Source: Fodinibius roseus (GTDB lineage: Bacteria; Bacteroidota; Rhodothermia; Balneolales; Balneolaceae). Taken from it: a stretch of DNA of 64,000 bases. The notes beneath the pieces were generated by a model that did no database searches, was not told the origin of the DNA, and saw only the letters and a list, made by a program, of their open reading frames with translations. Location of the stretch: NCBI RefSeq assembly GCF_900129315.1, contig NZ_FQUS01000005.1, forward strand, positions 124,001 to 188,000, written 5' to 3'. A program made the translations under genes and the position numbers. Shown piece by piece: positions 19,118-38,044 of the stretch; positions within the stretch are counted from its first letter, which is position 1, and every line of letters starts with the position of its first letter.

Positions 19118-22100
19118 ATGAAAAATGTTGTAAATTGTTCTATAAAGATAGCATTGGCAATTGTTTTGATATCCTTGACGGGTGCTTTTGCGCAAGCCCA
19201 GAAGCTGGGCTCCTTGCATTTGCCTTCTGGATTGAGTCAGGAGAAGGAACTCATGATAGAAGAGGGGGTTTCCATGAAAGAGGCTCTGAAACGCGTTGAA
19301 GAACGGTTCCATGTCGTATTCTTATATCGCACGGATACCATGAGAGGGAAAAAAGTGGACAGTGCCAAAATCCTACCCCGGAATGTCAAGCAAGCGCTGG
19401 AGATGCTGTTAGATGGTCAGGGACTTTCCTTCAAGTATCTGAATCCCAAAACATATGGAATATATGCCAGTCAGAAGAGACAAATAAAGAATCAAGTGCA
19501 AGAGGGTTCATTATCCGGGACTATTGTAGATCGTAAAAATGGCGAAGTATTAGTAGGCGCAAATGTGTATATAGAAGAGTTAGAACGGGGAGTATCGACT
19601 GATATAAACGGCGAGTACTCACTTGAATCTCTGCCGACGGGTGAATATACATTACGCATTACCTATGTGGGATATCGGGAAGAGACCGTAACCATTACGA
19701 TTGGTGATGGAGAAAACAGGTTGAATATCGAATTACAGCCTGACCTTTTCGGCTTGGATGAAGTTGTAGTTACAGGGGTAGTAGGTGACACCGAAACGAA
19801 AAATTTACCTTTTACTGTGCAACGTGTTACCAGCAGCGACCTGGAAAAGGTGCCGAGTCTGAGTGCTGAAAGCGCTATTAGGGGCAAGGTTCCCGGCGTT
19901 ACGATCCTGCAGGGCAGTGGAGAGCCCGGGGCGGGCGGAATGTCTGTAATGTTGCGTGGAGCAACGTCGATATCCGGCTCCAATGAACCACTTTATATCG
20001 TGGATGGTGTAATACTGGGAAGCGATATGCGTGACATTGAATCGCTCGATATAGAGAGTGTTGAAGTTATCAAAGGAGCTGCCGCCGCCACGCTGTACGG
20101 TTCCAGGGCGGCTAATGGAGTCATACAGATACGGACCAAAAGAGGAAAATATATGCGAGAAGACGCAACGCAGGTAAAATTACGGAATGAAGTTGGATTT
20201 AATGAGCTTCCCCGAACACTGGGTATGAACCAGTCTCATGCCTATTACAGGAGCGGCGATCCGGATAAACCATGGATCGGACCGGATGGCAACCCGACCG
20301 ATGACAGGGTGGCACGGACCACAAAACCGGGAGCCACATCATTTTTGGATCAGGAATACCCGGTTCCAATTTACGATCACACGGAACGCTTTTTTGTTTC
20401 CAGGCCTTTTTATTCGAATTATATCTCAATAGCTCGCAATATTGGACAAACAAACTACGCACTTTCCTTCAATAATACCAAAAATGCCGGTGTTCTTGAA
20501 GACTCGGATGGTCATAACCGAAAAAATATACGGTTGAATATTGACAGCGAGATTTTTGGAAACTTGCAAACCTCATCGAGTATTTATTATGCGTCTTCGG
20601 TAAGAGATGACGTTGGAGGAGTTACCCCATTTTTCGATTTGTTATTTCAGCAACCCGATGTCGACCTCGCGGAGCGGGATGAAAATGGAAGGTATAAATA
20701 TGAAGGGGATCCGACCTCGAACTACAACAATCCCCTCTATGATGTCGCATATATCGACCGTCAGCGAGATCGAAGCCGGATCATGGGTAGTTTTGATGTT
20801 AGGTATAACCCTTTTGAATGGCTTGAACTGGCCGGTAATTTCAGCTATGACCGGACTGATACTAAAAGTTCAGACTACTGGCCGACCTTCTACAATCATG
20901 TCAACAACACAAGCTACGAAGAGGGGGGATTATCTTTGAGCGAGGGATTGAATGAAGCCATCAATTCAAGTTTAACAGCTACTGTTGACAAAGGTTTCGG
21001 AAACCTGGCGACCCGGACCCAATTCAGGTATTTGCTTGAATCTACGGATAATGAGTATCTGTCCGCCGGTGGCCAGCGATTTCTGGTAGATGGTGCCCGC
21101 ACATTAGGGGCCACGGATAATACCAGACAAAACCTTGTATCTTCCATGTCGACGATAAAAGCCGAAGGATATTACCTGTTGACAAATTTAAACTATCAGG
21201 ACAAATATATCGTTGATGTGATGGGACGAAGGGATGGCAGTTCACTTTTCGGAGCAGATGAGCGGTGGCACAGCTACTATCGATTAAGCGGTGCTTACAG
21301 GATATCCGAAGAAGATTGGTTTAATATTCAGCCGATAAATGAGTTTAAATTGAATGCATCGTATGGAACGGCCGGGGGCCGTCCGGGATTTTCTTATCAG
21401 TATGAAACATGGAGTGTGTCGGGTTCGTCGGTGAGCAAAGGGAATCTGGGCAACAGAAATTTAAAGCCGGAATCGGCCAGTGAATTGGAATTTGGTCTTG
21501 ATTTGGGACTTTATGACCAGTTTTTCCTGGATCTTAATTATGCAGAATCGGTCACCGAAGATCAGATTCTGCTTGTTCCTTTGGAAAGTTACTATGGGTT
21601 CAATAGTCAATGGCAGAATGCTGGGACGGTGGAAAGCAATACTTTTGAAGCAAGTTTGAGAGCTTATCCCCTGCAACGGCCCAATACCAGTCTATCTTTT
21701 ACGTTCAATTTCGCCCGAACACGTTCCGTGATGTCTGAGTTTGATCGGCCTCCCCAAACGGTTTCCCTTTATTTTCAGAGGAGAGACAATGAGCCGTTTG
21801 GTAATCTGTACGGGGGACGATTCATAACGGATTATGCTGATTTGGAAGAGACTTATGGTGGCGACTACAGCGCCTACTTTGAAAAAAACGACGATGGATA
21901 CCTGGTTCCCGTCGGTACAGGCAATTCCTGGCAGTCCATGATGTGGGGGGAAACCGTTGTGGCCGAAGACGGAACGGAGTTGGGGACTTGGGGACATCCG
22001 GTCCTTTATCACGATGATAATGCCTTGATCGGGAACACGGCCCCTGATTTCAGTCTTTCTCTTGGTACTAATTTTGATTACAAGGGACTGTCACTCTATA

Positions 22101-22522
22101 CCTTGTTTCAGGGTGAGTTCGGCCATGATATTTATAACAGGACCCGGGCGTGGCTCTACAGAGATAATCTTGCTGCTGAACAAGATCAGCGGGGTAAAGC
22201 TGAAGAGGCCAAGAAACCGATCAATTATTACCAGACGCTGTATCGATCCGGTAATCCAAGCAGTCACATGGTCGAAGACGGTACCTATCTTAAACTTCGG
22301 GAGGTTTCGGTGAGTTACAGTTTTGACAGCACTCAGCTTAGTTCCATATTCGGAGGAGTGATTAGTACTATTAACATTGGTCTCATTGGACGAAATCTTA
22401 TTACATGGACAAGCTATTCGGGATACGATCCGGAAGTGGGTAACCATCCGTTGCAAAGAGTGGATCACAGGGTCTATCCTAATTTCAGAACCATTTCGGG
22501 TAATCTTGAAATTCAATTTTAA
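19118..22522 (+). CDS. SusC/RagA-family TonB-linked outer-membrane transporter with STN domain
   Basis: Full-length 1134-aa receptor. Order of parts: signal peptide ending FAQAQ (~28); STN signalling domain ~45-112 (MKEALKRVEERFHVVFLYR); carboxypeptidase-like beta domain ~130-210 (GTIVDRKNGEVLVGANVYIEE style); plug ~220-330 (VVVTGVVGD, IRGKVPGVTI, PLYIVDGVIL); barrel to a C-terminal Phe. The STN domain implies ligand sensing through FecR to the ECF sigma factor, both encoded just upstream. It imports the substrate processed by the hydrolase and exported enzymes downstream. The ligand is unknown. Confidence 0.95.
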   Translation: MKNVVNCSIKIALAIVLISLTGAFAQAQKLGSLHLPSGLSQEKELMIEEGVSMKEALKRVEERFHVVFLYRTDTMRGKKVDSAKILPRNVKQALEMLLDGQGLSFKYLNPKTYGIYASQKRQIKNQVQEGSLSGTIVDRKNGEVLVGANVYIEELERGVSTDINGEYSLESLPTGEYTLRITYVGYREETVTITIGDGENRLNIELQPDLFGLDEVVVTGVVGDTETKNLPFTVQRVTSSDLEKVPSLSAESAIRGKVPGVTILQGSGEPGAGGMSVMLRGATSISGSNEPLYIVDGVILGSDMRDIESLDIESVEVIKGAAAATLYGSRAANGVIQIRTKRGKYMREDATQVKLRNEVGFNELPRTLGMNQSHAYYRSGDPDKPWIGPDGNPTDDRVARTTKPGATSFLDQEYPVPIYDHTERFFVSRPFYSNYISIARNIGQTNYALSFNNTKNAGVLEDSDGHNRKNIRLNIDSEIFGNLQTSSSIYYASSVRDDVGGVTPFFDLLFQQPDVDLAERDENGRYKYEGDPTSNYNNPLYDVAYIDRQRDRSRIMGSFDVRYNPFEWLELAGNFSYDRTDTKSSDYWPTFYNHVNNTSYEEGGLSLSEGLNEAINSSLTATVDKGFGNLATRTQFRYLLESTDNEYLSAGGQRFLVDGARTLGATDNTRQNLVSSMSTIKAEGYYLLTNLNYQDKYIVDVMGRRDGSSLFGADERWHSYYRLSGAYRISEEDWFNIQPINEFKLNASYGTAGGRPGFSYQYETWSVSGSSVSKGNLGNRNLKPESASELEFGLDLGLYDQFFLDLNYAESVTEDQILLVPLESYYGFNSQWQNAGTVESNTFEASLRAYPLQRPNTSLSFTFNFARTRSVMSEFDRPPQTVSLYFQRRDNEPFGNLYGGRFITDYADLEETYGGDYSAYFEKNDDGYLVPVGTGNSWQSMMWGETVVAEDGTELGTWGHPVLYHDDNALIGNTAPDFSLSLGTNFDYKGLSLYTLFQGEFGHDIYNRTRAWLYRDNLAAEQDQRGKAEEAKKPINYYQTLYRSGNPSSHMVEDGTYLKLREVSVSYSFDSTQLSSIFGGVISTINIGLIGRNLITWTSYSGYDPEVGNHPLQRVDHRVYPNFRTISGNLEIQF

Positions 22523-22543
22523 ATTTGAAAAGAATTTAACCTC

Positions 22544-24097
22544 ATGAAATATCTTAAATTAGTTACAAGTTTAATGGTGATCACATTTTGTACGCTGGGT
22601 TGCACAGACCTGAGTGTAGATAATGAAATGAATCCAAATACAGAGGAAGCACTATCCCAGGTAGAGGATATTGAAGCTCTGGTGGGGAATCAGTTTCGGC
22701 AGTGGGTACAAGGGGTACAGAACCGGGGGGTCAATGACAGGATGACCCTGATGGGACTGGAGATGACAAATGGATATTCTTTTGTTTCTGATTACCTGAA
22801 ATTCCCGCAGGAGCCGTTCAATAACTCCTCTTCCTACCGGTATAATAATATTGTAACATCACCGTGGTCGAATTTATATACGGCAATCTCTTCTTCAAAT
22901 GACGGACTTGAAGCAATTGATCAAAGAGGAATGGAATTGGCCACGGAGGCTGAAACCCAGAGAATGAGGGCTTTCGCGAAATTTATACAGGGGATGTCCT
23001 ATGCGTTTCTGGCAAACGAGTTTGATCAGGCCATCCTGATCGATGAAACAAACGATCTGGAGAACTTTGAACCCGAACTACATCCGTATCAGGAAGTGCT
23101 TAACTTTGCTCTTGGAAAGCTGGAAGATGCCCGATCAATTGCCCAACAGTATTCTTTTACGCTTCCCAATGAATGGATTCTCGGGAATCCTCTCACATCC
23201 GAGGAGTTTGTACGTCTGATTAATTCGTATGAAGCACGTTTTATCCTGCAGAATGCGAGAACTCCCGACGACCGGGATAATGTGGACTGGCAGCGAATCC
23301 GACAGTTAATTGAAAACGGTATCGAGGAAGATTTGATTATTGAAGCAGACGGATCGGTTTGGAGTATTTTTGCCGGCATTTTACAGGGCGGTGTTTTTCG
23401 TGCCAGCTATTACCTGATCGGTCGTACGGATGAAAGCGGTAAGTTTGAGGAGTGGAGAACCACACCGGCTGCGGAACGCTCCGAGTTCGTACTTGAGACG
23501 TCTGACAAAAGAATCGCCGGACAGGAAACAGTGCAAGGTACCGACTATTCCGGTACCGTAATGACCCTCGAGGCCCGTAAAAGAGCTCCCGGGACAGACT
23601 TCAAATGGGCCGGTCCTTCACTCTGGCCGGATGCTAACGGAGGATGGTATGGGTCCCAGTATTATTACCACAGAACGGACCAGGCTTGGAATAATGGGGG
23701 CGTGGGTCCCGTTCCGTATATGAGGAAAGCAGAAATGGATCTATATCTTGCCGAAGCCCTTCTTCGAGAAAGTGAACCTGTAGTCGATCCGGAGGCGGTT
23801 GAATTAATTAACCAGACGCGTGTTGAGCGAGGGGGACTGGAGCCCGTTTCGGTCAATGACTCTTTTGATAAAGTTTGGAATGCTATGCGATATGAATTTG
23901 ATATTGAGACTGCTGCTACTGGTGGTGGGTTGGCTTATTTTACTAAAAGAGGTATGGGCGATCTAAGAGGAAAAGATTGGGGGGGACTGATTGAAGGGAC
24001 GCCCTTGCATCTGCCCCTTCCCGCTGAAGAACTCGATCTGCTTGGCATGCCTCACTACACATTTGGAGGCGCGGGGACGGAAGGAGCAGCCCCTTAG
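22544..24097 (+). CDS. SusD/RagB-family lipoprotein
   Basis: Surface ligand-binding lipoprotein of 517 aa, 21 bp after the SusC gene. The signal peptide ends with a lipobox TLGC (Cys ~20). Typical features are helical repeats, FIQGMSYAFLANEFDQAI (the SusD TPR segment) and a late MRKAEMDLYLAEALLR helix with NQTRVERGGL, as in RagB/SusD proteins. It is the lid and ligand binder for the upstream receptor. It differs in class from the SusD at 1.3 kb, so the window holds two different transport systems. Confidence 0.93.
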   Translation: MKYLKLVTSLMVITFCTLGCTDLSVDNEMNPNTEEALSQVEDIEALVGNQFRQWVQGVQNRGVNDRMTLMGLEMTNGYSFVSDYLKFPQEPFNNSSSYRYNNIVTSPWSNLYTAISSSNDGLEAIDQRGMELATEAETQRMRAFAKFIQGMSYAFLANEFDQAILIDETNDLENFEPELHPYQEVLNFALGKLEDARSIAQQYSFTLPNEWILGNPLTSEEFVRLINSYEARFILQNARTPDDRDNVDWQRIRQLIENGIEEDLIIEADGSVWSIFAGILQGGVFRASYYLIGRTDESGKFEEWRTTPAAERSEFVLETSDKRIAGQETVQGTDYSGTVMTLEARKRAPGTDFKWAGPSLWPDANGGWYGSQYYYHRTDQAWNNGGVGPVPYMRKAEMDLYLAEALLRESEPVVDPEAVELINQTRVERGGLEPVSVNDSFDKVWNAMRYEFDIETAATGGGLAYFTKRGMGDLRGKDWGGLIEGTPLHLPLPAEELDLLGMPHYTFGGAGTEGAAP

Positions 24098-24236: not shown

Positions 24237-26606
24237 ATGTACAAGAAAAATATATTCCTGATATTCTTCATACTTACCCTTTTCGCGGTCCCTTATACGG
24301 GGTATGAGCTTCAAGCTCAAGAAAACTCTTTCGATTTTTTTTCCGCGCCCTATAGTTTGGACTATGAAAGAGAGATGGAAGACGATATTCTATCGGGTAT
24401 TAATAATTATTTGACCCGTTATACCGAGAAGATTATAGAGAGACGGCATGAGTATTGGGATCGAAATACCCGGTCTATTGAAGCATACCGGGAATCCGTA
24501 GCTCCGAATCGTAACAAATTAAAAGAAATATTAGGGGTCGTTGATCCCAGGGCCCCCGTCCGTATGGTATCGGAGGGCATGGAAACAAAAGCTCCGGTAG
24601 TGGGAGAATCCGCGAATAGTACGATCTATAGCGTTCGCTGGACGGTGATGGATGGCCTGACATCCGAAGGATTACTATTGGTACCCAAGGGAAATATCAC
24701 GGCTTCTGCGGTCGTAATACCTGATGCTGAGGAAGACCCTGAGATGTATGCGGGGCTAAAAGAAGGTCCCGGTACAGCGCTTTCGCTTGCAGAGTCCGGT
24801 GTTCAGGTATTGATACCCCAGCTGGTCGACCGCCGTTCGGACTATTCAGGGAGCAAGAAGTTGGTACCCAGAAAACCCTGGACCGGTAATGCGGAACCGG
24901 TTGCCGTGTCAACCAATCAGTCTCACAGGGAGTGGATATACCGGCAGGGATATATCATGGGCAGACACATTATCGGCTTAGAAATTCAAAAGGTTCTCAC
25001 AGCCGTAGACTGGCTGGAAGAAAACGCCCATGATTCCTCATTGCCTGTTGGTGTTATGGGGTACGGGGAAGGGGGACTTCTGGCTTTTTATTCATCCGCT
25101 ATTGATGAGCGGATTGAAGCAAGCTGGATCAGCGGTTACTTTGGTCCCCGCGATGAGTTATGGAAGGAACCAATCGATCGGAATATTTGGGGACTCTTGA
25201 CTGAATTTGGGGATGCTGAGATAGCAAGCCTGATTGCTCCCAGAAAAATGATTATTGAACACGTTCCTGTTCCGGATGTGGAAGAACCTCTCCCCGTCAA
25301 GGGGGATCAGCTGGATTACGGTCTCCCGGGCAAGCTTACTACGCCGGACCGGAAGCAGGTTGAAGAGGAGCTTGACCGGTTGTATGACTTTTTTCCGGAC
25401 GCGGGTCATGTACAGCCCGATGTGGAGTTCATCAGCTCTACAAGTCACGGATCTACAAAGGCATTGGCTTCCTTTGGCAGGGCGCTGGGAAGCAAAACTG
25501 TTCCCGATTCCGATGCATCGCTGCAGCGGTCGGTCTGTGCAGATGCTTCTTCATTTATTGAAAATCGTGCCCATCGCGTATTTAATAATATGCAGGAGTA
25601 TATACAGGATATGATTCCTGCTTCAGATCAGCGTCGCTACGAATTTTTGCAGGGGGATATTTCGTCCGCGGATTCATGGGATAAGGATATGGAACCCTAT
25701 CGCCGGGAATTCTATGAAGAGGTGATGGGTAAAATTCCCGAACCCCTGCTTGCTATGAATCCCCGCATGAGGCAAGTTTATAACGAACCCGGATGGGATG
25801 GATATGAAGTGGTCCTGGATGTTTGGCCAGGGGTGGTCTCCTGGGGTATTCTGGCCGTTCCCAAAGATCTTTCTGACGATGAGAAGCGACCGGCAGTAGT
25901 CATGCAACACGGGGCCAGTGGACTTCCGAGCACACCGATTATTGTAGACAGCTACTTCCAGGTGCTCCCGGCTTTGGTTAACCGGGGTTTTGTCGTCTTT
26001 GCGCCCTATAATCCCTATCAGTTTAATATACGAAAAGCGAATGCTGTCAAGGCAGGCACCTTTTCTGTTATCATTCCCCAACACAAGCAGATTCTTAATT
26101 TTCTTCAGTCCCTCGACTATGTTGACGGAGAGCGAATTGCCTTGTATGGGAAAAGTTGGGGAGGTCGTACGGCCCAGACTGTCCCCATCGTCCTGGACCG
26201 TTATAAAGTGGCTATCAGTTCTGCCTACTTTAATGACTGGGTAAGGAAGATTGCCAGTGTGGATTACCGGAATTCCTATTATTTTACAAAATCAACGGGA
26301 GTCTATCACTGGAATATGGGAAATACGTTTACCCATGCCGAGATGGCATCCCTTATTGCGCCCAGGCCGTTTATGGTAGAGAGTGGTTACCTGGATGGCG
26401 TAGCTGCTCATGAAATGGTCGCCTATGAGTTCGCAAAAGTTAAACGTCTCTATTCCCATCTGGGCATTGGGGATCGCGCGGAACTGGAGTTTTTTATGGG
26501 GGGACACGATATAAACGGGCAGGGAACATTCCGTTTTCTTCATAAGCATCTGGAATGGCCGGCCCCGGATAACCCCACAGAACACCAAATGATTTCTCCT
26601 CCCTGA
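24237..26606 (+). CDS. Exported protein with two alpha/beta-hydrolase domains
   Basis: Secreted 789-aa protein with a signal peptide (hydrophobic ~7-25). Two hydrolase lobes can be seen. Lobe 1 (~130-400) has the elbow VGVMGYGEGG, where the nucleophile position is Glu instead of Ser. Lobe 2 (~520-780) has an intact elbow ALYGKSWGGR with Ser, an oxyanion-like MQHGASG, and a C-terminal His in FFMGGHDINGQG. So lobe 2 should be active and lobe 1 inactive. It resembles dienelactone-hydrolase or acetyl-esterase-like enzymes. It follows SusD by 139 bp and probably removes an ester from the imported substrate. Confidence 0.82.
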   Translation: MYKKNIFLIFFILTLFAVPYTGYELQAQENSFDFFSAPYSLDYEREMEDDILSGINNYLTRYTEKIIERRHEYWDRNTRSIEAYRESVAPNRNKLKEILGVVDPRAPVRMVSEGMETKAPVVGESANSTIYSVRWTVMDGLTSEGLLLVPKGNITASAVVIPDAEEDPEMYAGLKEGPGTALSLAESGVQVLIPQLVDRRSDYSGSKKLVPRKPWTGNAEPVAVSTNQSHREWIYRQGYIMGRHIIGLEIQKVLTAVDWLEENAHDSSLPVGVMGYGEGGLLAFYSSAIDERIEASWISGYFGPRDELWKEPIDRNIWGLLTEFGDAEIASLIAPRKMIIEHVPVPDVEEPLPVKGDQLDYGLPGKLTTPDRKQVEEELDRLYDFFPDAGHVQPDVEFISSTSHGSTKALASFGRALGSKTVPDSDASLQRSVCADASSFIENRAHRVFNNMQEYIQDMIPASDQRRYEFLQGDISSADSWDKDMEPYRREFYEEVMGKIPEPLLAMNPRMRQVYNEPGWDGYEVVLDVWPGVVSWGILAVPKDLSDDEKRPAVVMQHGASGLPSTPIIVDSYFQVLPALVNRGFVVFAPYNPYQFNIRKANAVKAGTFSVIIPQHKQILNFLQSLDYVDGERIALYGKSWGGRTAQTVPIVLDRYKVAISSAYFNDWVRKIASVDYRNSYYFTKSTGVYHWNMGNTFTHAEMASLIAPRPFMVESGYLDGVAAHEMVAYEFAKVKRLYSHLGIGDRAELEFFMGGHDINGQGTFRFLHKHLEWPAPDNPTEHQMISPP

Positions 26607-26725: not shown

Positions 26726-27658
26726 ATGAGTGTTAACCGACGCCGCTTTTTAAAAAAATCTCTCTGGGGTATGACGGCCACCCTGGGAGCTCCTGTTTCT
26801 GGTATATTACAAAAGTTTGACCGCTCCGATGATACGGAGCCTGTGGCCCCGGAGGGCCTGGTTATCGATACCAATGTCCATATTTCCGAGTGGCCGTTCC
26901 GGGATCTGAAATATAGCGAGACCAGTGCCATGGTCGATAAGCTGCGGAAGCACGGGATCCGGGAGGCATGGACCGGCAGCTACGACGCGCTGTTCCACAA
27001 GAATATCGACAGCGTCAATGCCCGCCTGGCCGAGGCCTGTCAACAAGAAGGCGAGGGACTGCTGGTACCTTTTGGTACGGTCAATCCGCGGTGGCCGGAC
27101 TGGAAGGAGGATCTGAGGCGATGTGACGAAGCCTACGGCATGCCGGGTATCCGCTTGTATCCGGGCTACCAGAACTATACCCTCGAACTCCCGGAATTTG
27201 CGGAATTACTGAAAGAAGCATCGGGCCGGGGAATGGTGGTACAGATTGCCATCGACCAGGAAGATGAGCGAATGCAGCACCCCCGGGTGGAAATCCCCGC
27301 CGTGGATGTGTCCCCGCTGCCTGCTGTCCTGGAGTCTGTTCCTGATGTGACCGTCCAGCTTCTCAATCCCTTCCGCCATGTCCGCGGTGATAATCTCGAA
27401 TCGGTTATTAAAGAAACGGACGTTCTGTTTGATATCTCTAATCTGGACGGGAATGGGGGACTTGAACGTATCATGGCCGGTAATCACTGGTATCTCGGCA
27501 GTACCCCGATTCCGTCCGCCCGCCTTCTCATGGGCTCACACGTACCCTTTCGCCCGGTCGAAAACGTCTTGTTCAAGCTCATGGAATCCGCATTGGATGA
27601 GGAGGATGCCGCTGCTATCATGTCCGGAAATGCTGCCCGGATGCTCAGGACGGCATAA
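26726..27658 (+). CDS. Tat-exported amidohydrolase-family TIM barrel
   Basis: Amidohydrolase-related protein of 310 aa. The N-terminus is a good Tat signal: NRRRFLKKS followed by a hydrophobic stretch (WGMTATLGAPVSG). The barrel begins with VIDTNVHISEWPFRDL, a form of the metal-binding N-terminal strand that keeps only one His. Later parts include GIRLYPGYQNY, VVQIAIDQED and a final LLMGSHVPF. Reactions in this superfamily include lactone hydrolysis and decarboxylation. It is followed 52 bp later by a second amidohydrolase without a signal peptide. Confidence 0.85.
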   Translation: MSVNRRRFLKKSLWGMTATLGAPVSGILQKFDRSDDTEPVAPEGLVIDTNVHISEWPFRDLKYSETSAMVDKLRKHGIREAWTGSYDALFHKNIDSVNARLAEACQQEGEGLLVPFGTVNPRWPDWKEDLRRCDEAYGMPGIRLYPGYQNYTLELPEFAELLKEASGRGMVVQIAIDQEDERMQHPRVEIPAVDVSPLPAVLESVPDVTVQLLNPFRHVRGDNLESVIKETDVLFDISNLDGNGGLERIMAGNHWYLGSTPIPSARLLMGSHVPFRPVENVLFKLMESALDEEDAAAIMSGNAARMLRTA

Positions 27659-27710: not shown

Positions 27711-28577
27711 ATGTCACATTCAGATTATAGCTTTACGGTTGATCCTGCTGCACTCGGCCTGCCATCACGAGACGAACTGGTCGATATGCGCATCTGGGAC
27801 AGCCATTATCACGGGACCGGAAGCCATGAAGAAATCGTGAAGTATATCAAACGTATGGGTATTGAACGCGTTATTTCTCTGGATATCGGAGGAGGAGTTA
27901 CTTCTGAGGACCCGGAACGCGATAAAAGACACCGGTCGCTCCTGAAAGAATGGCGGAAACTCCTGAGTGGTATTACCCGAATTGATCCTGGTTATCCCCA
28001 TAAGAGCCTTAAGAAAATGGAACGATGGATCCGAAACGGTCCGTGCATCGGTATTAAGTACAGCGGGCTTATTGAACTGGATGTCACCTGCGACCACCCG
28101 AATAGTGACCCTATTATCGAGCTGGCCGAGGAACTGGGAGCCGTAATCTATATACATACCTGGATCAAGGTCGGAGGCAATCCCCGCTATGCAGGTGGGG
28201 GGAATTATACAGGCGAGTCGACGCCCATGGATGTCGCCAAACTCGCGGAGCGTTTCCCGGATGTACAGATGATCTGCGGCCATCAGGGCGGCGACTGGGA
28301 ACTGGGAATCCGGGCCATACGGCCCCACGAAAATGTTTTATTGGAGTTTTCCGGGGCCCTGCCGACCTCCGGGGCGGTGGATCTGGCGGTCAATGAGCTG
28401 GGGACCGATCGTCTTGTCTGGGGGGGACACGGCCCGAGCCGATCCTATGCCAATGAGCTCTCGAAAGTCTATGACGCCGATCTTTCAGACGAGGAGCGCA
28501 TGAAAATATTCGGGACAAATTATCGGCGACTTGCCGCCCCGATCATGCGCGAGAAAGGGTATTCTGTAAAAATCTAA
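27711..28577 (+). CDS. Amidohydrolase-family protein, predicted cytoplasmic
   Basis: TIM-barrel amidohydrolase of 288 aa. Metal-ligand-like motifs are IWDSHYHGTG (HxH-like), IYIHTWIKVGG (His), MICGHQGGDWELG (His) and a late LVWGGHGPSRSYANEL where an Asp is usually found. A Lys in GIKYSGL may be the carbamylated or active-site lysine. No signal peptide. It is distantly similar to its upstream neighbour, and a remnant of a third relative lies at 31109-31336 (shared segment of the RVISLD type). A lactonase or hydrolase of a sugar acid is possible but not shown. Confidence 0.85.
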   Translation: MSHSDYSFTVDPAALGLPSRDELVDMRIWDSHYHGTGSHEEIVKYIKRMGIERVISLDIGGGVTSEDPERDKRHRSLLKEWRKLLSGITRIDPGYPHKSLKKMERWIRNGPCIGIKYSGLIELDVTCDHPNSDPIIELAEELGAVIYIHTWIKVGGNPRYAGGGNYTGESTPMDVAKLAERFPDVQMICGHQGGDWELGIRAIRPHENVLLEFSGALPTSGAVDLAVNELGTDRLVWGGHGPSRSYANELSKVYDADLSDEERMKIFGTNYRRLAAPIMREKGYSVKI

Positions 28578-28635: not shown

Positions 28636-29940
28636 ATGATCATGAATAGTGAACACAGATTGTTTGCTGCTTTCCTTGTTTTACTTGTTACTATGCTTAC
28701 GGCCTGTACGCAGAAAAATTCAGATACAGATGAAAAATCAGCAGACGGTAATGAAGAGTCTATCAGATATATCGAGCCGAACGCGGCCACAGGTACCTCG
28801 ATGGGGACTGTAGTATCAGGCAAGCTGCCACTGGCTCACACCGGGCAGTTTCTGGCGCTCGATAAAGACGGAAAGCTTGTGGGCACCGATAACACCGGGC
28901 AGCAAATCCAACAGGTGCTGAAGAATGTTCGCCTGGCATTGACGGAGGTCGGTGCCGGGCTGGAAAATCTGGTCAAGCTCAACGTATACGTTGCCAGCAA
29001 CGAGGTCGCCGAGCAAGTGCGGACCTATTTCGCTGATACGTTCACCGGCGAGGCCAAACCGGCCGTCTCTTTTGTGGTGACGAAGCTGCCACGCCAGAAA
29101 GCGCTGGTGGCGATGGACGCAGTGGCGGCCGGCGTAGAAGCCCGGGACCAGAGCGAGGTGCTTCATGCTGACTCGCTCTACGGGGTCCCGAACCGGGGAC
29201 ACGTGGCCATCCTGCCGGTGGGGGAGAGGGTATACCTCTCCGGCCAAGTCGACCCGGGCGATCTGCTGACAGCCACACGCGGAACAATAGAGAGCTTGCA
29301 TGGCACGCTGGCGTATTTAGGGCTCAGTGCTGAGGATGTGGCCCAAGTAAAAGCCTATCTTCCTGACGCCTCCAGAGTTGATGAGGTGGAAAAGGTCATT
29401 GCCGAGTACTATCGGGAGAAGCCCGTTCCACCCGTCGTTTTCGTTGAATGGAGTGAAGGTGATTATTTAAGGTATCTCTCCACTGATGGGGAGAAGGCTA
29501 CCCCTATAGAAATTAGCTTGATTACTTCTGGAAAGGCATCTACTGAGGATACTACATATGCCAGAGACAGCCCCAACTACCTTACCTATCCGGGTTTGAC
29601 CGATTACCCGGGCTATAGTCGGATCGTGACGGTGCCACAAGCGGATCTCGTTTACACATCGGGACTGTATGGCGGGCCTTCGAGGGACGCCGCCGGTCAG
29701 GTCCAAGACATTTTCCGCAAAATGAAAGATATCCTGAAGAAGGCTGGCTCAGACTTCGATCATCTCGTTAAAGGAACCTACTATGTGACGGGTGAGGAGA
29801 GTAGCGATAAACTTGGTGACATCCGGAAAGACTTATTTAATCCAGATCGTTTTCCCGCCTCAGACAAGATGCCAGTACGAGGTGTCGGAGAAAAGGAGGT
29901 GACTATTACTATAGAGATGGTTGGTATGGTGCCGAAATAG
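28636..29940 (+). CDS. Lipoprotein of three tandem RidA (YjgF) domains
   Basis: Exported 434-aa protein. Signal peptide and lipobox LTAC place it in a membrane. Three RidA-like units follow: ~45-165 (GTVVSGKLPLAHTGQF ... DAVAAG), ~185-290 (GVPNRGHVAILPVGERVYLSGQ ... VVFVEW, seen in parts) and ~325-434 (YPGYSRIVTVPQADLVYTSG ... IEMVG). RidA hydrolyses reactive enamines/imines, normally in the cytoplasm, with a key Arg near the C-terminus. Units 1 and 2 lack this Arg (PAVSFV, PPVVFV) while unit 3 has PVRGV. The second ATG at 28642 is better spaced from GAAAGAG and may be the true start. Confidence 0.85.
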   Translation: MIMNSEHRLFAAFLVLLVTMLTACTQKNSDTDEKSADGNEESIRYIEPNAATGTSMGTVVSGKLPLAHTGQFLALDKDGKLVGTDNTGQQIQQVLKNVRLALTEVGAGLENLVKLNVYVASNEVAEQVRTYFADTFTGEAKPAVSFVVTKLPRQKALVAMDAVAAGVEARDQSEVLHADSLYGVPNRGHVAILPVGERVYLSGQVDPGDLLTATRGTIESLHGTLAYLGLSAEDVAQVKAYLPDASRVDEVEKVIAEYYREKPVPPVVFVEWSEGDYLRYLSTDGEKATPIEISLITSGKASTEDTTYARDSPNYLTYPGLTDYPGYSRIVTVPQADLVYTSGLYGGPSRDAAGQVQDIFRKMKDILKKAGSDFDHLVKGTYYVTGEESSDKLGDIRKDLFNPDRFPASDKMPVRGVGEKEVTITIEMVGMVPK

Positions 29941-29988: not shown

Positions 29989-31017
29989 ATGATCAGAAGA
30001 ATACTGTTTGTTGTCGTATTACTCTTTGTTAGCGTATGGCCGCTATCTGCTCAGCACATTCCGTCTGATGAGGAGATACGCATCGGCATTATTGGACTTG
30101 ATACGTCTCACAGTCTGGCCTACGCTAAGTTGATTAATCAGACGGACAGCTCATCACTGGCAGGACTCCGGGTGGTCGCTGCCTATCCGAAAGGCAACCC
30201 CGACCTCGCGACGGGTGAACGCATCCCTGAGTTTACTGAGGACGTCCGTAAGCTGGGTATTGAAATTGTTGGCTCGATTGACGAACTGCTGGCGCGTGTG
30301 GATGTCGTCATGCTGGAGACACGTGATGGGCGCATGCACTTGGAGCAGGCGCTGCCTGTCCTCAAAGCAGGCAAGCCTCTGTACATTGATGCGCCGCTCG
30401 CCGGCTCCCTTGGTGAGGCCATTGCTATTTATGAGGCAGCCCAGCGCTACAACGTTCCCGTGTTTACGGCAGAGCCGCTGCGTTATACGCCCAAAACGCA
30501 AGCCATTGCAGAGGGCAAGGTGGGGGAGATCATTGGCGCTGCCACATACAGTCCGGCGCCCACGCATCCGACCCACTCAGATTTGTTTTGGTATGGTGGA
30601 CACGGCGTTGCCATGCTGTACACCGTTATGGGTCCCGGCTGCGAGGTCTTATGGCGCGTTCACACGCAGGGTACAGATGCTGTGATTTGCAGGTGGGAGG
30701 ACGACCGTCTCGGTACATACCGGGGTATCCGCAGTGGAAAGCGTGGCTACGGCGGGACCGCGTTTGGCACTGACGGAATTGTTCGCTTGGGCGGCTTTGA
30801 GGACTATCTTCCTGTAGTTCTTAAGGTTGGCTCGTTTTTCAAAAGCGGTAAGCCGCCTGTGTCTGCTGAGGAGAGCCTGGAGATCTATGCCTTTATGGCG
30901 GCAGCGGACAAAAGTAAGCGCTTAGGCGGCCAGCCAGTATATCTCGAGAAGATGCTGGCCAACACACGGAAAGAGGCCAGGCAGAAGCTGGAGCAGATAT
31001 TAAGCGAACGTAATTGA
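29989..31017 (+). CDS. Secreted Gfo/Idh/MocA-like protein with altered active-site motifs
   Basis: 342-aa protein with a clear signal peptide (hydrophobic 5-20, cleavage near LSAQ) followed by a Rossmann fold IRIGIIGLDTSHS. The usual GxGxxG is changed, with the last Gly replaced by a Ser-His segment. The catalytic EKP motif is also changed to IDAPLAGSLGEA, losing the lysine. The second domain (TYSPAPTHPTHSDLFWYGGHGV) is typical of the family. It may not be a classic dehydrogenase. It lies 48 bp after the RidA lipoprotein and is probably co-transcribed. Confidence 0.82.
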   Translation: MIRRILFVVVLLFVSVWPLSAQHIPSDEEIRIGIIGLDTSHSLAYAKLINQTDSSSLAGLRVVAAYPKGNPDLATGERIPEFTEDVRKLGIEIVGSIDELLARVDVVMLETRDGRMHLEQALPVLKAGKPLYIDAPLAGSLGEAIAIYEAAQRYNVPVFTAEPLRYTPKTQAIAEGKVGEIIGAATYSPAPTHPTHSDLFWYGGHGVAMLYTVMGPGCEVLWRVHTQGTDAVICRWEDDRLGTYRGIRSGKRGYGGTAFGTDGIVRLGGFEDYLPVVLKVGSFFKSGKPPVSAEESLEIYAFMAAADKSKRLGGQPVYLEKMLANTRKEARQKLEQILSERN

Positions 31018-31542: not shown

Positions 31543-31663
31543 ATTGTTTATTAAAATTTTGAGTCGCATTATTAATAACCAAATAAAATTCAAAGATTCA
31601 ATTATGATTCAGCAGCTTAAAATATTTTTTCTCAATAGCCTGTCTTGTAAAAGGGAGGCTCAA

Positions 31664-33253
31664 ATGCCCACAACATCCGAGGGTTTATTACAGAACCGGC
31701 GACTCGGGACTGTTTTATTGCTGTTGGGGATGGCGTGTTTTTTTATTCAATGTGCGAGAAATGATATAGAGAATTCCGGTGATCCATCCTTTGAAACCTA
31801 CTTCAGGGCGGATTCTACGTACATTGGTATTAGCACGGTTGCGGAAAAATTAGATGTACCTTGGGAGATAACATGGGGTCCGAACGGCTGGATATGGATG
31901 ACCGAACATGGAGGAACTGTAAGTAAAATTGATCCGACCTCGGGGCAGAGGAAAAAGATGCTAAAATTGCAGAATGTGTACGAGGGAACAACGCCGGGAT
32001 TGCTGGGCATGGTGGTCCATCCGAATCAGGAGCGTTTTCCGTACCTTTTTTTGGTATACAATTCCAAAAAAGAAGGTGGAACCATTTATTGGAATGTCGA
32101 TCGGTACAAAATTGGAGCGGATACCCTCAGAGACCGCAAAAATTTGTTAAAGATAAAAGGAGGCGATGGTCGCCAGGGTTCGAGAATAAGAATTTCACCG
32201 AAAGGAAAACTGATTGTTGCAAATGGCGTTGGATTCTCAAATTCCCAGGATGTGGATTTGTTGGCCGGAAAGATTCTTAGGCTGAATATTGATGGCAGTA
32301 TTCCCGAAGATAACCCCTTTCCAGATAGCCCGGTTTGGGCTTGGGGATTCAAAAATCAACAGGGGTTAACCTTTGGTAAAGATAGTATTTTATATGCTTC
32401 AGACCATGGGATGGCCACGGATGACGAAGTTAGTATCATCAAGAAAGGGCGAAATCATGGATGGCCAACGGTAGAAGGGTACTGCGACAAACCGAAAGAA
32501 AAAGCATTTTGTGCCGACTCGTCTGTAGTGGAACCTATTAAAGCGTGGTCGCCCACTATTGCGCCGTCGGGACTTGCCTATTATGGATATGATAACATAC
32601 CGGAATGGCAACATTCACTCCTTTTGACCACACTCCGCAATGTTTCCTTACACGTTTTATCGCTTGATAAGTCTGGCCGTACTGTCGAGAAGGAAATGGT
32701 TTATTTGTCTGATAAATATGGACGATTGAGAGATGTAACGATTTCACCTGAGGGTGATGTTTATATCTCCACCAGCAACCGAGACTGGAAACATAATTCT
32801 GAAGAAGAGTGGCCTAAACCAAATGACGACCGGATCCTTCGGCTTTCAGGAATTCAAGACAGTTCATCTCTGAAAGGCGTTCCCCCAATAAAACAAGTGG
32901 CAACGTATGCATCCACGATGATGAAACGATTGTCAAATTCAAAAGGAGGACGTATTTATAAGAAGCGCTGTGTCTCTTGCCACCAGCCTGATGGAAAGGG
33001 AATCAGGGGTAGCTTTCCTTCCTTAGAAGGGGATAAGCATATACCCAAGGCCCGGTTAATATCGATCGTGTTAGAAGGTAAGGACTCGGAGGAATACACG
33101 GAAAAAATGCCTGCTTTTAGATCTTTGAGTGACCAAAAAGTTGCCCGCGTGCTTACCTTTATCCGTTCCCATTTTTCAAACCGTGGTTCGAAAATTACAG
33201 AAGAGCAGGTAAAAGTGATCCGGGATAGTATTTCCGTTAAACATGACAAATAG
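31664..33253 (+). CDS. Glucose/sorbosone-dehydrogenase-like lipoprotein fused to cytochrome c
   Basis: 529 aa from ATG 31664, chosen because AGGGAGG lies 8 bp upstream and the next ~25 residues form a signal peptide with lipobox FIQC. The body is a PQQ-dependent sugar-dehydrogenase-type six-blade propeller (LDVPWEITWGPNGWIWMTE, GLLGMVVHP, GFKNQQGLTF, SDHGMATDDEV). The C-terminal ~85 residues carry one heme-c site, RCVSCHQPDGKG, with a late Met in EKMPAF as likely axial ligand. It should oxidise a sugar in the periplasm and pass electrons to its own heme. Confidence 0.9.
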   Translation: MPTTSEGLLQNRRLGTVLLLLGMACFFIQCARNDIENSGDPSFETYFRADSTYIGISTVAEKLDVPWEITWGPNGWIWMTEHGGTVSKIDPTSGQRKKMLKLQNVYEGTTPGLLGMVVHPNQERFPYLFLVYNSKKEGGTIYWNVDRYKIGADTLRDRKNLLKIKGGDGRQGSRIRISPKGKLIVANGVGFSNSQDVDLLAGKILRLNIDGSIPEDNPFPDSPVWAWGFKNQQGLTFGKDSILYASDHGMATDDEVSIIKKGRNHGWPTVEGYCDKPKEKAFCADSSVVEPIKAWSPTIAPSGLAYYGYDNIPEWQHSLLLTTLRNVSLHVLSLDKSGRTVEKEMVYLSDKYGRLRDVTISPEGDVYISTSNRDWKHNSEEEWPKPNDDRILRLSGIQDSSSLKGVPPIKQVATYASTMMKRLSNSKGGRIYKKRCVSCHQPDGKGIRGSFPSLEGDKHIPKARLISIVLEGKDSEEYTEKMPAFRSLSDQKVARVLTFIRSHFSNRGSKITEEQVKVIRDSISVKHDK

Positions 33254-33424: not shown

Positions 33425-35923
33425 ATGACGAGTTCCTCCTATTATATTTATATGGAGAAGGAAATCATCGCACCGTATTATACTATCATGAATTACGATA
33501 ACAACAGATCTTTTTTTCCCGTTGTCATAGTAATAGCCGCCTGTCTGTTTGTTGTACAGGCCTGCGAATCAGAAGAATCCGAACAACCCCTCGGCAAAAC
33601 CTGCCTTACGCTTTCGGCCGGATTACAGAATGCCCCGGTAGATGATCCCGGCGAGGCCTATAATTATAAAGAATTCTCTGACCTGCCAACACCACCGCTG
33701 CCTCCGGAGCAGGCGCTGGAGCGATTCGAACTGGAGGAGGGGTTTCGTATCGAGCTGGTTGCACATGAACCCATGCTTACCGATCCCGTTGCCATGGATA
33801 TTGACGCAGACGGACGCCTTTGGGTGATCGATATGCCTTCCTATTTGCCGGAACACGACCGCAGTGAAGCCGAAACAATTCCGCTGCAGCAGGTGCCGGA
33901 ATCGAGAGTGGTGATTCTCGAGGATACCAACGGGGACGGGAAGATGAACTCGTTCAGGGTGTTTGTGGAGGATCTGAAAATGCCCCGGGCTATCAAAGTA
34001 CTCAATGACGGCATACTGGTGGGCGAACCTCCCAACGCGTGGTTCATCCAGGATACGAATGGAGACGGTAAAGGCGATTCCAGGGAGGTGGTCTACCGTA
34101 CGTATGGAGATCCGATGGTTGACAATGTACAGAACATGCCTAATAATTTTTTGTGGGGGATGGATAACTGGATCCACAGTTCGCATGATAATGTGGAAAG
34201 CCTGCGGAGGATTGACGGGGAGTGGCATACCCGGAATTTTAAACGGTTGGGGCAGTGGGGGATGAACCAGGACGACTGGGGCCGCCTCTACTCTGCGACC
34301 AATACCAGTCCGCTCCAGACTCATCTGGTACCGCATGGCTATAGTGAAAGGCATCCCGGTTTTGAGGTCAGTAACGGTATCAATGTAAATATTGCCCGGA
34401 AGGCACCCATGTGGCCGGCTCACCCGACCGGGGTAAACCGCGGTTACCGGGTGGGACAGGTGGTACGGGAGGACGGCACTCTCAAAACCGCTACTGCCAC
34501 AACGGCCCCTGTCATCTACCGGGGAGATCAATTCGGGGAAAAATACCGTGGAAATGCATTTACCCCGGAGCCCGCAGGCAACCTGATCAAACGATATATT
34601 CTGGAAGCCGATCCGGCAGAGATCGAGGCTGAGGCAGATTTTGCCTATGAAGGCCGCGAATTCCTCACCTCAACGGATGAGCGGTTCCGCCCGATTAACA
34701 TGTACAATGCCCCGGACGGTTCCATTTACGTGGTTGACATGTACAGGGGACTCTTTGAGACGGCGCTGTCGCTGACGGATCATCTCAGAGAGTACGCGGT
34801 GGAACAGGGACTCCACAAACCGGTTGGAGAGTTCGGGCGAATCTGGCGTATTGTGCGTGAAGACCGGGATATTGATTATGAAACCCCGGAGTTTAGCATG
34901 CTGACACCGTCTGAGGTGGTGGAGTACCTGCAGCATGAGAACGGACAGCTGCGCGACCAGGCGCAACAGGTGCTGGTCCAGTGTTCGCCGCCGGAGGTTG
35001 TTTCAAGACTCGAAGAGATGACCGCAGCGGGGGATGCGAAAGCAGACTGGACCCGCCTTCATGCGCTGTGGACCCTGGAGGGATTTGACCGGTCGGTCTA
35101 CGGGCAGGGTGAACTCAGCCGGACAGCTCTGGAGGCCCTCAATGATCCCCATCCCCGGGTTCGGGCTTCGGGTATACGCATCCTTGAACGCTCCATGGAC
35201 CGGAATTCCTCCGAAATATTCCCCCGCCTGGAAGAGCTGGCGGAAAAAGAGCAGGCGGCCTATGTCCGCCTTCAGCTGCTGGCCTCGCTGGGTGAATCCG
35301 ACACCGGCCGGGCTCTACGGCTGATAGCGTCCCTCCTCGATGAGCATGCCGACAGCCCGTATTTCCGGGAGATGGCACTGTCCGGTGCGTACCAGCGCGA
35401 GGAACAGTTGGCCGGCATACTCCGCCGCGAATACAACTGGGGCAGCGAGCGGGGGGAAGCGCATGCGCAGCTGCTGAACCAGCTATCGGAAGCTGGAGAG
35501 CAGCGGTCGGGAACCGATTTGAGTCATTTGACCCAGGCGCAGCGGGAGCGGTACGAAAAGGGTCGTCCGCTTTACCGTACCTGTATGGCCTGCCATGGGA
35601 AGAACGGGGAGGGACAGTCCGGGGTAGGCGCCCGGCTGTCCGGCAGCAAATGGGTGCAGGAAGATCCGGAGGCGTTGGTACGTATCGTACTGCAGGGATT
35701 TTCAGGGAGAGCCGAAGAGCGTGGAGAGGAGATGACGTCCGTCATGCCGGGACACGATTACCTGTCCAATGAGGATCTTGCGGCAATCCTGACTTATATA
35801 CGCAATGCGTGGGACAACAAAGCCTCGCCGATAGACCCGGAAACGGTCCGCGAGGTACGCGAAGAGACCCGGGATAAATCCGGTACCTGGTCCCCTGATG
35901 AGCTGCGTGACGTTATCAAGTAG
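33425..35923 (+). CDS. PVC-type membrane-bound dehydrogenase-like lipoprotein with HEAT repeats and cytochrome c
   Basis: 832 aa. Likely parts: lipoprotein signal ending VVQAC; N-terminal propeller (~70-460) beginning FRIELVAHEPMLTDPVAMDID, the signature of the putative membrane-bound dehydrogenase family common in Planctomycetes; HEAT-like helices ~490-690; C-terminal cytochrome c with CMACHGKNGEG and a late Met in SVMPGHDYL. The true start may be ATG 33488, which would put the signal peptide at the N-terminus; 33425 adds 21 residues. The substrate is unknown, but electron transfer in the periplasm is likely. Confidence 0.87.
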   Translation: MTSSSYYIYMEKEIIAPYYTIMNYDNNRSFFPVVIVIAACLFVVQACESEESEQPLGKTCLTLSAGLQNAPVDDPGEAYNYKEFSDLPTPPLPPEQALERFELEEGFRIELVAHEPMLTDPVAMDIDADGRLWVIDMPSYLPEHDRSEAETIPLQQVPESRVVILEDTNGDGKMNSFRVFVEDLKMPRAIKVLNDGILVGEPPNAWFIQDTNGDGKGDSREVVYRTYGDPMVDNVQNMPNNFLWGMDNWIHSSHDNVESLRRIDGEWHTRNFKRLGQWGMNQDDWGRLYSATNTSPLQTHLVPHGYSERHPGFEVSNGINVNIARKAPMWPAHPTGVNRGYRVGQVVREDGTLKTATATTAPVIYRGDQFGEKYRGNAFTPEPAGNLIKRYILEADPAEIEAEADFAYEGREFLTSTDERFRPINMYNAPDGSIYVVDMYRGLFETALSLTDHLREYAVEQGLHKPVGEFGRIWRIVREDRDIDYETPEFSMLTPSEVVEYLQHENGQLRDQAQQVLVQCSPPEVVSRLEEMTAAGDAKADWTRLHALWTLEGFDRSVYGQGELSRTALEALNDPHPRVRASGIRILERSMDRNSSEIFPRLEELAEKEQAAYVRLQLLASLGESDTGRALRLIASLLDEHADSPYFREMALSGAYQREEQLAGILRREYNWGSERGEAHAQLLNQLSEAGEQRSGTDLSHLTQAQRERYEKGRPLYRTCMACHGKNGEGQSGVGARLSGSKWVQEDPEALVRIVLQGFSGRAEERGEEMTSVMPGHDYLSNEDLAAILTYIRNAWDNKASPIDPETVREVREETRDKSGTWSPDELRDVIK

Positions 35924-36619: not shown

Positions 36620-38044
36620 ATGGATAATAAAGAAATGGACAGCGATGTGCCGATAAGTCGTCGCGTATTTTTAAAGTACACTGGGGCGGCCATGGCAATG
36701 ACGATGGTTGGTCTCCCCGGGCGTTTTGATACACATTCATCTAAAAAGAGATATATCATGGGAAATATACGAATAAGGAATGTTCAATCTAACTTTGAGC
36801 GTATTCCTTTGAATCCTTATCGGTTTAAGGGAGGAGCGAGCACCGAAATGTGGAACGCAATTGCCTGTATGGAAAGTGAAACAGGTACACGGAAAATTGG
36901 ATTGGGTCCACAAGGTGTGCTCTGGTCGGACGCTTCTGTAGCGGCTGCTCATTCAGAGGCTGGGGGCAACGCTTTAATGTATTCCGTGAGCGAACGAGCT
37001 TTACAAATGCTCAAAGGAGAATCATTTAAAAGTCCGGTACAGTTATTAGATGATATTTTCCCGGACGTGTACGGGTATGCAAAGGAAATTACCCGGATTG
37101 AGGATCTCAGCAAAACCTTTGCCTTGAATGCCTTGGTTTGTGTGGATAATGCAGCCTGGCTGCTCTATGCGGCAGAAAATGATATCCGCCATTTTGATGA
37201 GATGATCCCGGAGCCGTACAGACCGGGCTTGTCACATAAACACGAAGGAGTTGCGAGCATGCCTTCTTTTCCTTCCGGTACTCCGATAGGGAAAGTGAAC
37301 GAAGCTGCGGAAGAGGGTTATTTTATCATGAAACTGAAGATCGGAGCAGCCGGTACACAGCAGGAGATGCTGGAAAAGGATAAAGAATTTTTAACGGCAG
37401 TGCATAATGCCCTTGGGGACAGGAGAACTTCGTATACCAAGAACGGCAGGATCCCGTATTATTTGGATGCCAACGGTCGCTATGAGAAAAAAGAAACGCT
37501 TCTAAAGCTGTTGGATCATGCAAAGAAAATCGGAGCATTTGATCACATTGCGGTCATCGAAGAGCCTTTCCCGGAGCATAATAACAATTATGTGGACGAT
37601 ATGGGGGTTCGTGTCGCCGCAGATGAGCGGGCCCATACAGTAGAAGAAGCCAAGGAATGCATTGAGCTGGGATATACCGCTTTTGCGGTGAAGGCCATTG
37701 CAAAGACCCTGAGTATGACCATGAAGATTACTCAATTGGCGTACGAACACGATATCCCGTGTTTTTGTGCGGATTTGACCGTGTCTCCGATATTACTGGA
37801 GTGGAATAAAAATATAGCTGCAAGACTAAAACCGTTGCCGGAGCTTACTGTAGGTCTGCAGGAAGCCAATGGTCACCAATATTATAAGGACTGGGATAAA
37901 CAGATGAGTTATCATCCGATGCCTGAAGCGGAATGGGTAGAACCTCAAAAAGGAATATATCATACTGGAGAATCCTTTTATGAGCATAGCGGAGGGATAT
38001 TCAAGCCATCAAATCATTATGAAGCGTTGTTTAAAAATATGTAA
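36620..38044 (+). CDS. Tat-exported enolase-superfamily (mandelate racemase/MLE) enzyme
   Basis: 474 aa. The N-terminus has an exact Tat motif, SRRVFLK, with a hydrophobic segment (GAAMAMTMVGLPG). Enolase-superfamily marks follow: MKLKIG (catalytic-side Lys), YYLDANGRY (metal Asp), VIEEPFPE (metal Glu), VAADERAH (third metal ligand), and FAVKAIAK (Lys of the opposite face). Members dehydrate or epimerise sugar acids. Export of such an enzyme is rare. A sugar-acid dehydratase in the periplasm would fit with the sugar dehydrogenases next to it. Confidence 0.87.
   Translation: MDNKEMDSDVPISRRVFLKYTGAAMAMTMVGLPGRFDTHSSKKRYIMGNIRIRNVQSNFERIPLNPYRFKGGASTEMWNAIACMESETGTRKIGLGPQGVLWSDASVAAAHSEAGGNALMYSVSERALQMLKGESFKSPVQLLDDIFPDVYGYAKEITRIEDLSKTFALNALVCVDNAAWLLYAAENDIRHFDEMIPEPYRPGLSHKHEGVASMPSFPSGTPIGKVNEAAEEGYFIMKLKIGAAGTQQEMLEKDKEFLTAVHNALGDRRTSYTKNGRIPYYLDANGRYEKKETLLKLLDHAKKIGAFDHIAVIEEPFPEHNNNYVDDMGVRVAADERAHTVEEAKECIELGYTAFAVKAIAKTLSMTMKITQLAYEHDIPCFCADLTVSPILLEWNKNIAARLKPLPELTVGLQEANGHQYYKDWDKQMSYHPMPEAEWVEPQKGIYHTGESFYEHSGGIFKPSNHYEALFKNM

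Follow-up and report, generated by a model that had tools for sequence, protein, structure and literature searches.

Fodinibius roseus encodes a divergent protein from a family of exported three-unit Rid proteins that lacks the catalytic arginine

As far as is known, the biology of RidA is understood in the cytosol, where it rests on one arginine. A gene of Fodinibius roseus raises the question of what three Rid units joined in one exported chain would do, and whether any of them keeps that arginine. It lies in a 64,000-nucleotide stretch of DNA, here called the window, as an ORF at 28636-29940 on the + strand that is real, has confirmed coordinates and encodes 434 residues. Translation may start at the second ATG, at 28642, where a purine-rich site upstream is, by inspection, better spaced than at the first. 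The N-terminus (28636-28707) is hydrophobic and is followed by LTAC with Cys24 (28705-28707), a lipoprotein-type signal by inspection, and forms a helix at residues 5-25 in the structure model described below. By the lipobox rule, the protein is probably a lipoprotein, with Cys24 as its putative lipidated residue. Three stretches match PF01042 (Ribonuc_L-PSP), all above the curated Pfam cut-off of 27.3 bits: unit 1 (54.7 bits; residues ~44-166, 28765-29133, + strand), unit 2 (28.5 bits; ~172-300, 29149-29535, +) and unit 3 (42.1 bits; ~312-432, 29569-29931, +). The whole protein matches this family with an E-value of 3e-34, and it is the sole family reported at E-values up to 0.001. With the three modelled folds, these features bear out the initial annotation in describing three RidA units in one exported chain. 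Of the seven PF01042 matches in the genome, this ORF accounts for three, and the other four lie at other loci. One of the other proteins (L001) keeps the catalytic Arg, as PPARET, so that the window gene is not the sole Rid gene of the genome and probably not its housekeeping RidA. A further single Rid (L002, G000:C23:189873-190178) has a twin-arginine-like start and keeps its Arg as PVR.

Sites are numbered by the E. coli RidA scheme, some residues of which are named in PMC5979572. According to PMC4433059, imine hydrolysis depends on the catalytic Arg, which holds the imino acid by its carboxylate. After alignment, this position (Arg105) is occupied by Val144 in unit 1 (PAV; 29065-29067) and by Val267 in unit 2 (PPV; 29434-29436), and no intact Arg appears in either unit, as had been read initially. 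The same reading had placed an Arg at PVRGV in unit 3 and derived from it a single surviving RidA-type site. When unit 3 is aligned by phmmer with the solved RidA chains 8v8r and 3l7q, FPASDKMPVRGVGEKEVTITIE pairs with FPARSAVEVARLPKDVKIEIE and FPAS falls on FPAR, so that Ser409 (29860-29862) takes the catalytic-Arg position and the PVRGV arginine, Arg415 (29878-29880), lies six residues C-terminal to it. The strands bearing the Arg site in the model comprise residues 143-148, 267-271 and 408-413, with Val144 and Ser409 each the second residue of its strand, and Arg415 falls outside the site-bearing strand. As judged by alignment, all three units are without the catalytic Arg, and the score of the protein against the NCBIfam Rid deaminase model TIGR00004, 74 bits, is below the cut-off of 106.25. 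That unit 3 holds a single working site for imine hydrolysis of the RidA type is highly improbable. An Arg is indeed present at PVRGV, and in the single Rid L002 of the same genome the catalytic Arg truly sits in a PVR, but this shows how a PVR-like motif can mislead: the aligned residue is Ser409, and the Arg415 column carries Arg in 12 of the 78 pattern-found and none of the six pattern-free relatives introduced below. Ser by itself does not exclude a RidA-like function, as it occupies the catalytic-Arg position in ~10% of RidA proteins according to the available text of PMC4433059.

We modelled the structure with AlphaFold2 from an alignment of the window protein and 73 relatives (model m49d74f8a6681; mean pLDDT 90.4, pTM 0.88). 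The model contains three Rid folds, each repeat being made up of strands and two helices. When compared by VIA-align with 5v4f_A, residues 41-166 show a Rid fold, with a Z-score of 16.3 and an r.m.s. deviation of 1.9 on 125 aligned residues; 50 rows among the matches listed have Z-scores of 12.8-16.3 on 100-125 aligned residues, the size of one unit. Many single-Rid rows span model residues ~40 to ~433 with only ~115 residues aligned. The N-terminal strand of the model perhaps packs on, or completes, unit 3. We consider it most likely that the modelled chain forms, by itself, a one-chain equivalent of the RidA trimer. The confident global model supports this arrangement, as does the analogy drawn for three-unit Rid proteins in the available text of PMC4433059, which makes the pseudo-trimer suggested by the initial annotation a reasonable reading.

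By E-value, chorismatases (5a3k, E 3.3e-11) head the Foldseek matches of the model together with cyclic amide hydrolases (5hy2, E 3.1e-8), over 371-439 alignment columns, and the cyanuric acid hydrolase AtzD, a single chain with the 'Toblerone' fold, has been proposed to have arisen by the joining of three YjgF units (PMC3758960). The window protein might accordingly belong to the pseudo-trimers that open rings or catalyse eliminations, with a single composite site in the central barrel, as in cyanuric acid hydrolase or in chorismatases. The whole-chain superposition on the known pseudo-trimers is poor, with TM-scores of 0.19-0.31, so these matches do not show the same arrangement. The best E-values, which cover most of the chain, belong to chorismatases of the FkbO/Hyg5 type (5a3k, 5ag3, 4bps), with TM-scores of 0.23-0.31 and 11-15% identity; for the E 3.3e-11 match the TM-scores are 0.24/0.31 and the r.m.s. 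deviation is 17. Unlike AtzD/Bar, the window protein has no Pfam match to the cyclic amide hydrolase family, PF01042 being its single Pfam family, which equally sets it apart from the chorismatases. To our knowledge, AtzD is not exported. A ring-opening or elimination activity appears improbable.

The three-unit architecture itself is already known, "3x-RidA" proteins having been described in 2015 (PMC4433059, available text). Like EF_0115 of Enterococcus faecalis, described there as a presumed covalent trimer of three fused Rid units, the window protein has three tandem Rid domains in one chain. In its available text, PMC4433059 treats 3x-RidA as a subset of the RidA subfamily and makes no mention of export or of Arg loss in all units, and the term 'signal peptide' is absent from it. 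Subfamilies Rid4 to Rid7, which the same text separates from 3x-RidA, resemble the window family in missing the imine-hydrolysis Arg and keeping the Glu, but Rid4 and Rid7 carry Trp at the Arg site, whereas the window family mostly has Val, Ile, Leu, Cys, Ala or Ser. Among the papers listed by searches of the open PMC literature, none describes a 3x-Rid family that is exported or without the Arg. What appears to be new is an exported three-unit Rid family in which the Arg is gone from every unit, by comparison of sequences.

Three-unit relatives of the protein escaped the direct searches. With the window protein as query, no three-unit relative was found in the genome_contigs or viral_contigs collections, and the plasmids yielded one single-domain match and no three-unit protein; with unit 3 alone (E up to 5), 294 plasmid records matched, showing ordinary single-unit proteins only among the matches listed. 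In a sample of 296 genomes of the own phylum and class, the best match outside the window has an E-value of 9e-11 and is single-unit, among the matches listed, and a unit 3 query at E 1e-6 against a 395-genome sample of the phylum and class returned one single-domain relative (G133) and no three-unit protein. At E 1e-9, 244 genomes of the own class gave the window alone and none of the other 243. Two single-domain Rid proteins of the window's phylum, L021 (G133) and L048 (G290), begin with signal-like sequences and carry Ser in place of the Arg (PPAST and HPAST).

The family was reached only through a C-terminal motif, which was converted to a DNA pattern and scanned against genome_contigs. 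The scan returned 92 stretches, of which 81 hold a phmmer relative and 77 a relative spanning the three units (78 ORFs), a spanning match running from residue 115 or earlier to residue 425 or later; the window protein itself spans all three units in this way. The remaining 11 stretches, without a match, are probably chance hits. Scanning with a shortened version of this pattern returned 16 viral stretches, none of which holds a Rid ORF as judged by a small home-made profile. Together with six pattern-free relatives, two of them nearly identical, the 78 ORFs make up 84 members; four further loci, whose ORFs are partial (L153, L156, L203 and L213), do not enter the site counts. The search for other three-unit proteins that had been proposed for this locus thus returned 84 relatives, the closest (L128) being 45% identical to the window protein. 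Pattern-free whole-genome searches at E 1e-12 found the family in seven of 179 genomes of one phylum, including the starting genome G540, and in one of 145 of another, which was the starting genome G543 itself; the family is therefore patchy. All 20 genome entries searched individually (two of them repeats) contain a match, one per genome and two in G871. In a quick tree of 80 rows, with taxon labels taken from submitters' titles, 53 rows are Planctomycetota, 12 Verrucomicrobiota, three Bacteroidota, three Acidobacteriota and one Hydrogenedentota, and eight, including the window protein, are unlabelled. The window protein forms a long branch (0.99) without a supported sister. It belongs, as a diverged copy, to a family of exported three-unit Rid proteins whose members come mostly from Planctomycetota and Verrucomicrobiota. 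One contig titled Candidatus Nealsonbacteria (L171) encodes a protein placed among Pirellulaceae-type tree rows and is perhaps mis-binned.

None of the 84 relatives has the catalytic Arg in any unit, which, with its absence from all three units here, removes the single surviving site of the initial annotation. The residues found instead are Val, Ile, Leu, Thr, Ala, Cys or Met in unit 1, mostly Val, Leu, Cys, Ile or Gln in unit 2, and Ala in all 84 in unit 3. At the Arg site of unit 3 the pattern admitted only Ala or Ser, and it also fixed Lys411 (29866-29868) and nearby residues, so the 78 pattern ORFs are uninformative there; the pattern-free members alone test these positions and have Ala at the Arg site in six of six and Lys at 411 in five of six. 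Units 1 and 2 and the Arg415 column are unaffected by this bias. The position 120 acid of RidA is represented in unit 1 by Asp in all 78 pattern ORFs and in five of the six pattern-free members, the sixth having Glu. In unit 2, where its equivalent is residue 294 and not Glu292, it is Glu in 84/84, and in unit 3 it is Asp in 82/84 (76/78 pattern, 6/6 pattern-free). The window protein has Asp161 (29116-29118), Ser294 (29515-29517) and Glu427 (29914-29916), respectively. Across the family, the RidA-type acid is thus mostly kept while the carboxylate-binding Arg is lost in all three units. The Lys at position 107 of unit 3 is present in 77/78 pattern ORFs, largely by construction of the search, and in 5/6 pattern-free members; positions 105 and 107 are variable in units 1 and 2. 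Five residues outside the pattern, Trp272, Glu292, Lys379, Tyr382 and Arg397, are invariant in 84/84. Leaving out pattern columns, four columns in unit 1 and 11 each in units 2 and 3 are at least 95% conserved. The earlier idea of a new specificity survives in another form, as a mostly kept acid at position 120, a Lys at position 107 of unit 3 and greater conservation of units 2 and 3, and fails as a property of a surviving Arg site.

The window copy departs from its family at 10 of 35 strongly conserved columns (nine of them fixed by the pattern), the maximum among the other 84 being seven. Among the departures are Ser294, Ser409 and Glu427, where the family has Glu, Ala and Asp, respectively, and the copy may therefore act in another way or be on its way to losing its function. 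Decay or relaxation of a copy gained by transfer and no longer held to the constraint on the family would also account for the long single branch and for the lack of matches in the other 243 genomes of the class, but the ORF, the signal and the modelled fold are intact, and the gene is codirectional with a set of genes that also accompanies the family in Adhaeribacter, as described below. We regard decay as decidedly improbable.

By our own hydrophobicity heuristic, 68 of the 84 members carry export signals. Among the 16 without a call, six Rid regions lie inside longer chains, four are cut by a contig end and six have no signal by the heuristic, which is rough and visibly wrong in some single calls (e.g. 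L177); L178 and L206, among the six with no signal by this rule, have twin-arginine starts by eye. In seven long ORFs scanned, the fusion partners are an alpha/beta hydrolase (L134, L142 and L158), HEAT repeats (L161 and L197), a 3-keto-disaccharide hydrolase (L127) and Sel1 (L125). Chains of up to 1187 residues have the 3x-Rid part behind HEAT repeats, by Pfam in L161 and L197 and by similar upstream sequence, judged by eye, in L170 and L183; a relative of the window's DUF7133 cytochrome adjoins three of these fusions (L161, L170 and L183). Such partners, together with the loss of the catalytic Arg in all three units of 84/84 relatives and the variability of positions 105 and 107 in units 1 and 2, would suit a non-catalytic exported binding or scaffold protein, whose fused Rid ring binds a ligand or partner enzymes of the cluster. 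The invariance of the five site-like polar residues listed above, and of Glu294 in the 84 relatives, argues against it, and we consider a scaffold rather unlikely.

In the window, the 3x-Rid gene sits in a codirectional row (all + strand) that runs from a DegT enzyme to a DUF6797-cytochrome protein. The row begins with a DegT/DnrJ/EryC1/StrS PLP-type enzyme (15296-16657), which has the PLP-lysine motif and a Tat-like N-terminus of the RK variant (SRKQFL) and, 12 kb upstream, is a possible partner. An ECF sigma factor, FecR, SusC and SusD follow (16919-24097; uptake and regulation), then an alpha/beta hydrolase with DLH and Peptidase_S9 matches (24237-26606) and two Amidohydro_2 proteins, one with a twin-arginine-like start (26726-27658) and one with no obvious signal (27711-28577). 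Immediately downstream of the 3x-Rid gene is a Gfo/Idh/MocA oxidoreductase with a signal-like start (29989-31017), followed by a PQQ-type (GSDH) dehydrogenase with a cytochrome c domain (31544-33253), a DUF7133 protein with HEAT and cytochrome c (33425-35923), an enolase-superfamily protein (MR_MLE_C) with a twin-arginine-like start (36620-38044) and a DUF6797 plus cytochrome c protein (38066-40801). Downstream of the cluster, the same strand carries a full-length serpin (41797-43062; Pfam E 1.1e-106) in this bacterial genome.

Around the relatives, a rough gene caller, which lost 9/84 ORFs, found 72 adjacent same-strand genes, of which 70 were scanned for domains (all but one gene each of L209 and L166); the families include GFO_IDH_MocA (eight), Sulfatase (six) and Cytochrom_C (six). 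Among genes at least two places away (80 of 161), Amidohydro_2 occurs four times, DegT three and Sulfatase twice, and the 25 families listed do not include GFO_IDH_MocA. Relatives of the neighbours in the window itself, searched at E 1e-8, occur in family loci for the Gfo/Idh protein (one locus, L202), the DUF7133 cytochrome (five) and the amidohydrolases (two), and in no family locus for the ECF, FecR, SusD, alpha/beta hydrolase, enolase-type, FucI and SSF proteins. From the other side, searching with the 27711 amidohydrolase at E 1e-25 found relatives in two of 296 genomes (its own and G171), and searching with the Gfo/Idh protein at E 1e-30 found them in 12 of 395, with no three-unit Rid ORF around these copies by the small home-made profile, which missed the divergent PF01042 proteins L004 and L005 of the same genome. 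Shared neighbours are thus weak evidence for a link within the cluster. The Amidohydro_2 pair of the window recurs in its own genome (L063, G000:C52:23076-24975) and in a genome of the same family (L062, G171:C112:9332-11154), near SusC and with no 3x-Rid in the stretch.

DegT relatives are present in 8/81 family loci (11 ORFs) and beside the pattern-free copy of G714; they are absent near 73/81 family loci (stretches of up to 8 kb) and from all 11 pattern loci without a Rid match. In Adhaeribacter (G545), one strand carries a DegT 60% identical to that of the window, three amidohydrolases, the 3x-Rid, a DUF7133-cytochrome and SusC, and DegT and amidohydrolase genes are grouped once more at a distance of 14 to 18 kb. 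In Luteitalea (G874, L140), the locus comprises Gfo/Idh, a DUF7133-cytochrome, the 3x-Rid, two amidohydrolases and DegT. Several planctomycetes have paired DegT genes upstream of, or near, the 3x-Rid gene (L160 in G871, L179 in G870, L135, L184 in G873, and G714); where aligned (G870, G871 and G714), the members of a pair differ in the lysine motif, e.g. SFQVSKN, SFQLSKT and SLQNSKH. The planctomycete contig of L160 has tandem 3x-Rid genes at 4741-6021 and 5883-7604, with its two DegT genes upstream. We aligned 15 DegT rows, which represent 14 distinct genes, one row being a cut duplicate, and the PLP lysine is kept in 15/15; the DegT of G171, among the 14, is not beside a 3x-Rid. R-R-x-F lies near the start of all 14 distinct genes (11 rows by regular expression, three by eye), which by the twin-arginine rule points to Tat export, and the window DegT reads RK instead of RR. 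In 21 genomes, five of which (G870-G874) were picked because DegT was already known nearby, DegT matched 10 times in 304 kb near the family genes vs once in 301 kb far from them. The enrichment has a P of 1e-5 at the point estimate of this thin background of one far match, and chance is still allowed at its upper bound.

The loss of the Arg in every unit together with the retention of the acid suggests a substrate without that carboxylate, or binding without chemistry. We infer, from the aligned sites, that the window protein would not deaminate 2-imino acids and would act instead on a substrate without an alpha-carboxylate; it probably carries out a chemistry different from that of RidA, outside the cytoplasm. 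The export, the fusions and the neighbours would place it in the extracytoplasmic breakdown of sugars or amino sugars. As our main reading, the window protein is a diverged exported 3x-Rid member, a self-folded counterpart of the RidA trimer, that handles a substrate without an alpha-carboxylate; we give this reading, together with the proposals on the intermediate and the neighbouring enzymes that follow, a rough probability of 0.4.

The substrate would be, for instance, an imine, enamine or keto/enol sugar intermediate, and the link to DegT hints at a PLP reaction as a possible source of this intermediate. As gene order would have it, in some members, possibly including that of the window, the neighbouring Tat-exported DegT-family PLP enzyme would make the intermediate outside the cytoplasm, and the product would then be handed to the amidohydrolases and oxidoreductases. 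A bolder, unlikely extension is that planctomycetes and some Bacteroidota and Acidobacteriota practise extracytoplasmic PLP chemistry, in which a Tat-exported DegT enzyme would generate a reactive intermediate, an amino or imino sugar, to be resolved by a single-chain, exported Rid pseudo-trimer that has no Arg but a new Lys-bearing site, before the amidohydrolases and cytochrome-linked dehydrogenases act.

The label 'Rid family deaminase' is unsafe for Arg-less 3x-Rid proteins. An exported, patchy, multi-phylum family that keeps the fused layout without the Arg suggests a fold given another job. Should the link to a PLP enzyme with a Tat signal hold, it would offer a way to ask whether enamine or imine intermediates arise and are handled outside the cytoplasm, and the DegT-Rid pair, if read correctly, would be an extracytoplasmic version of the partnership between PLP enzymes and RidA, with a different chemistry.
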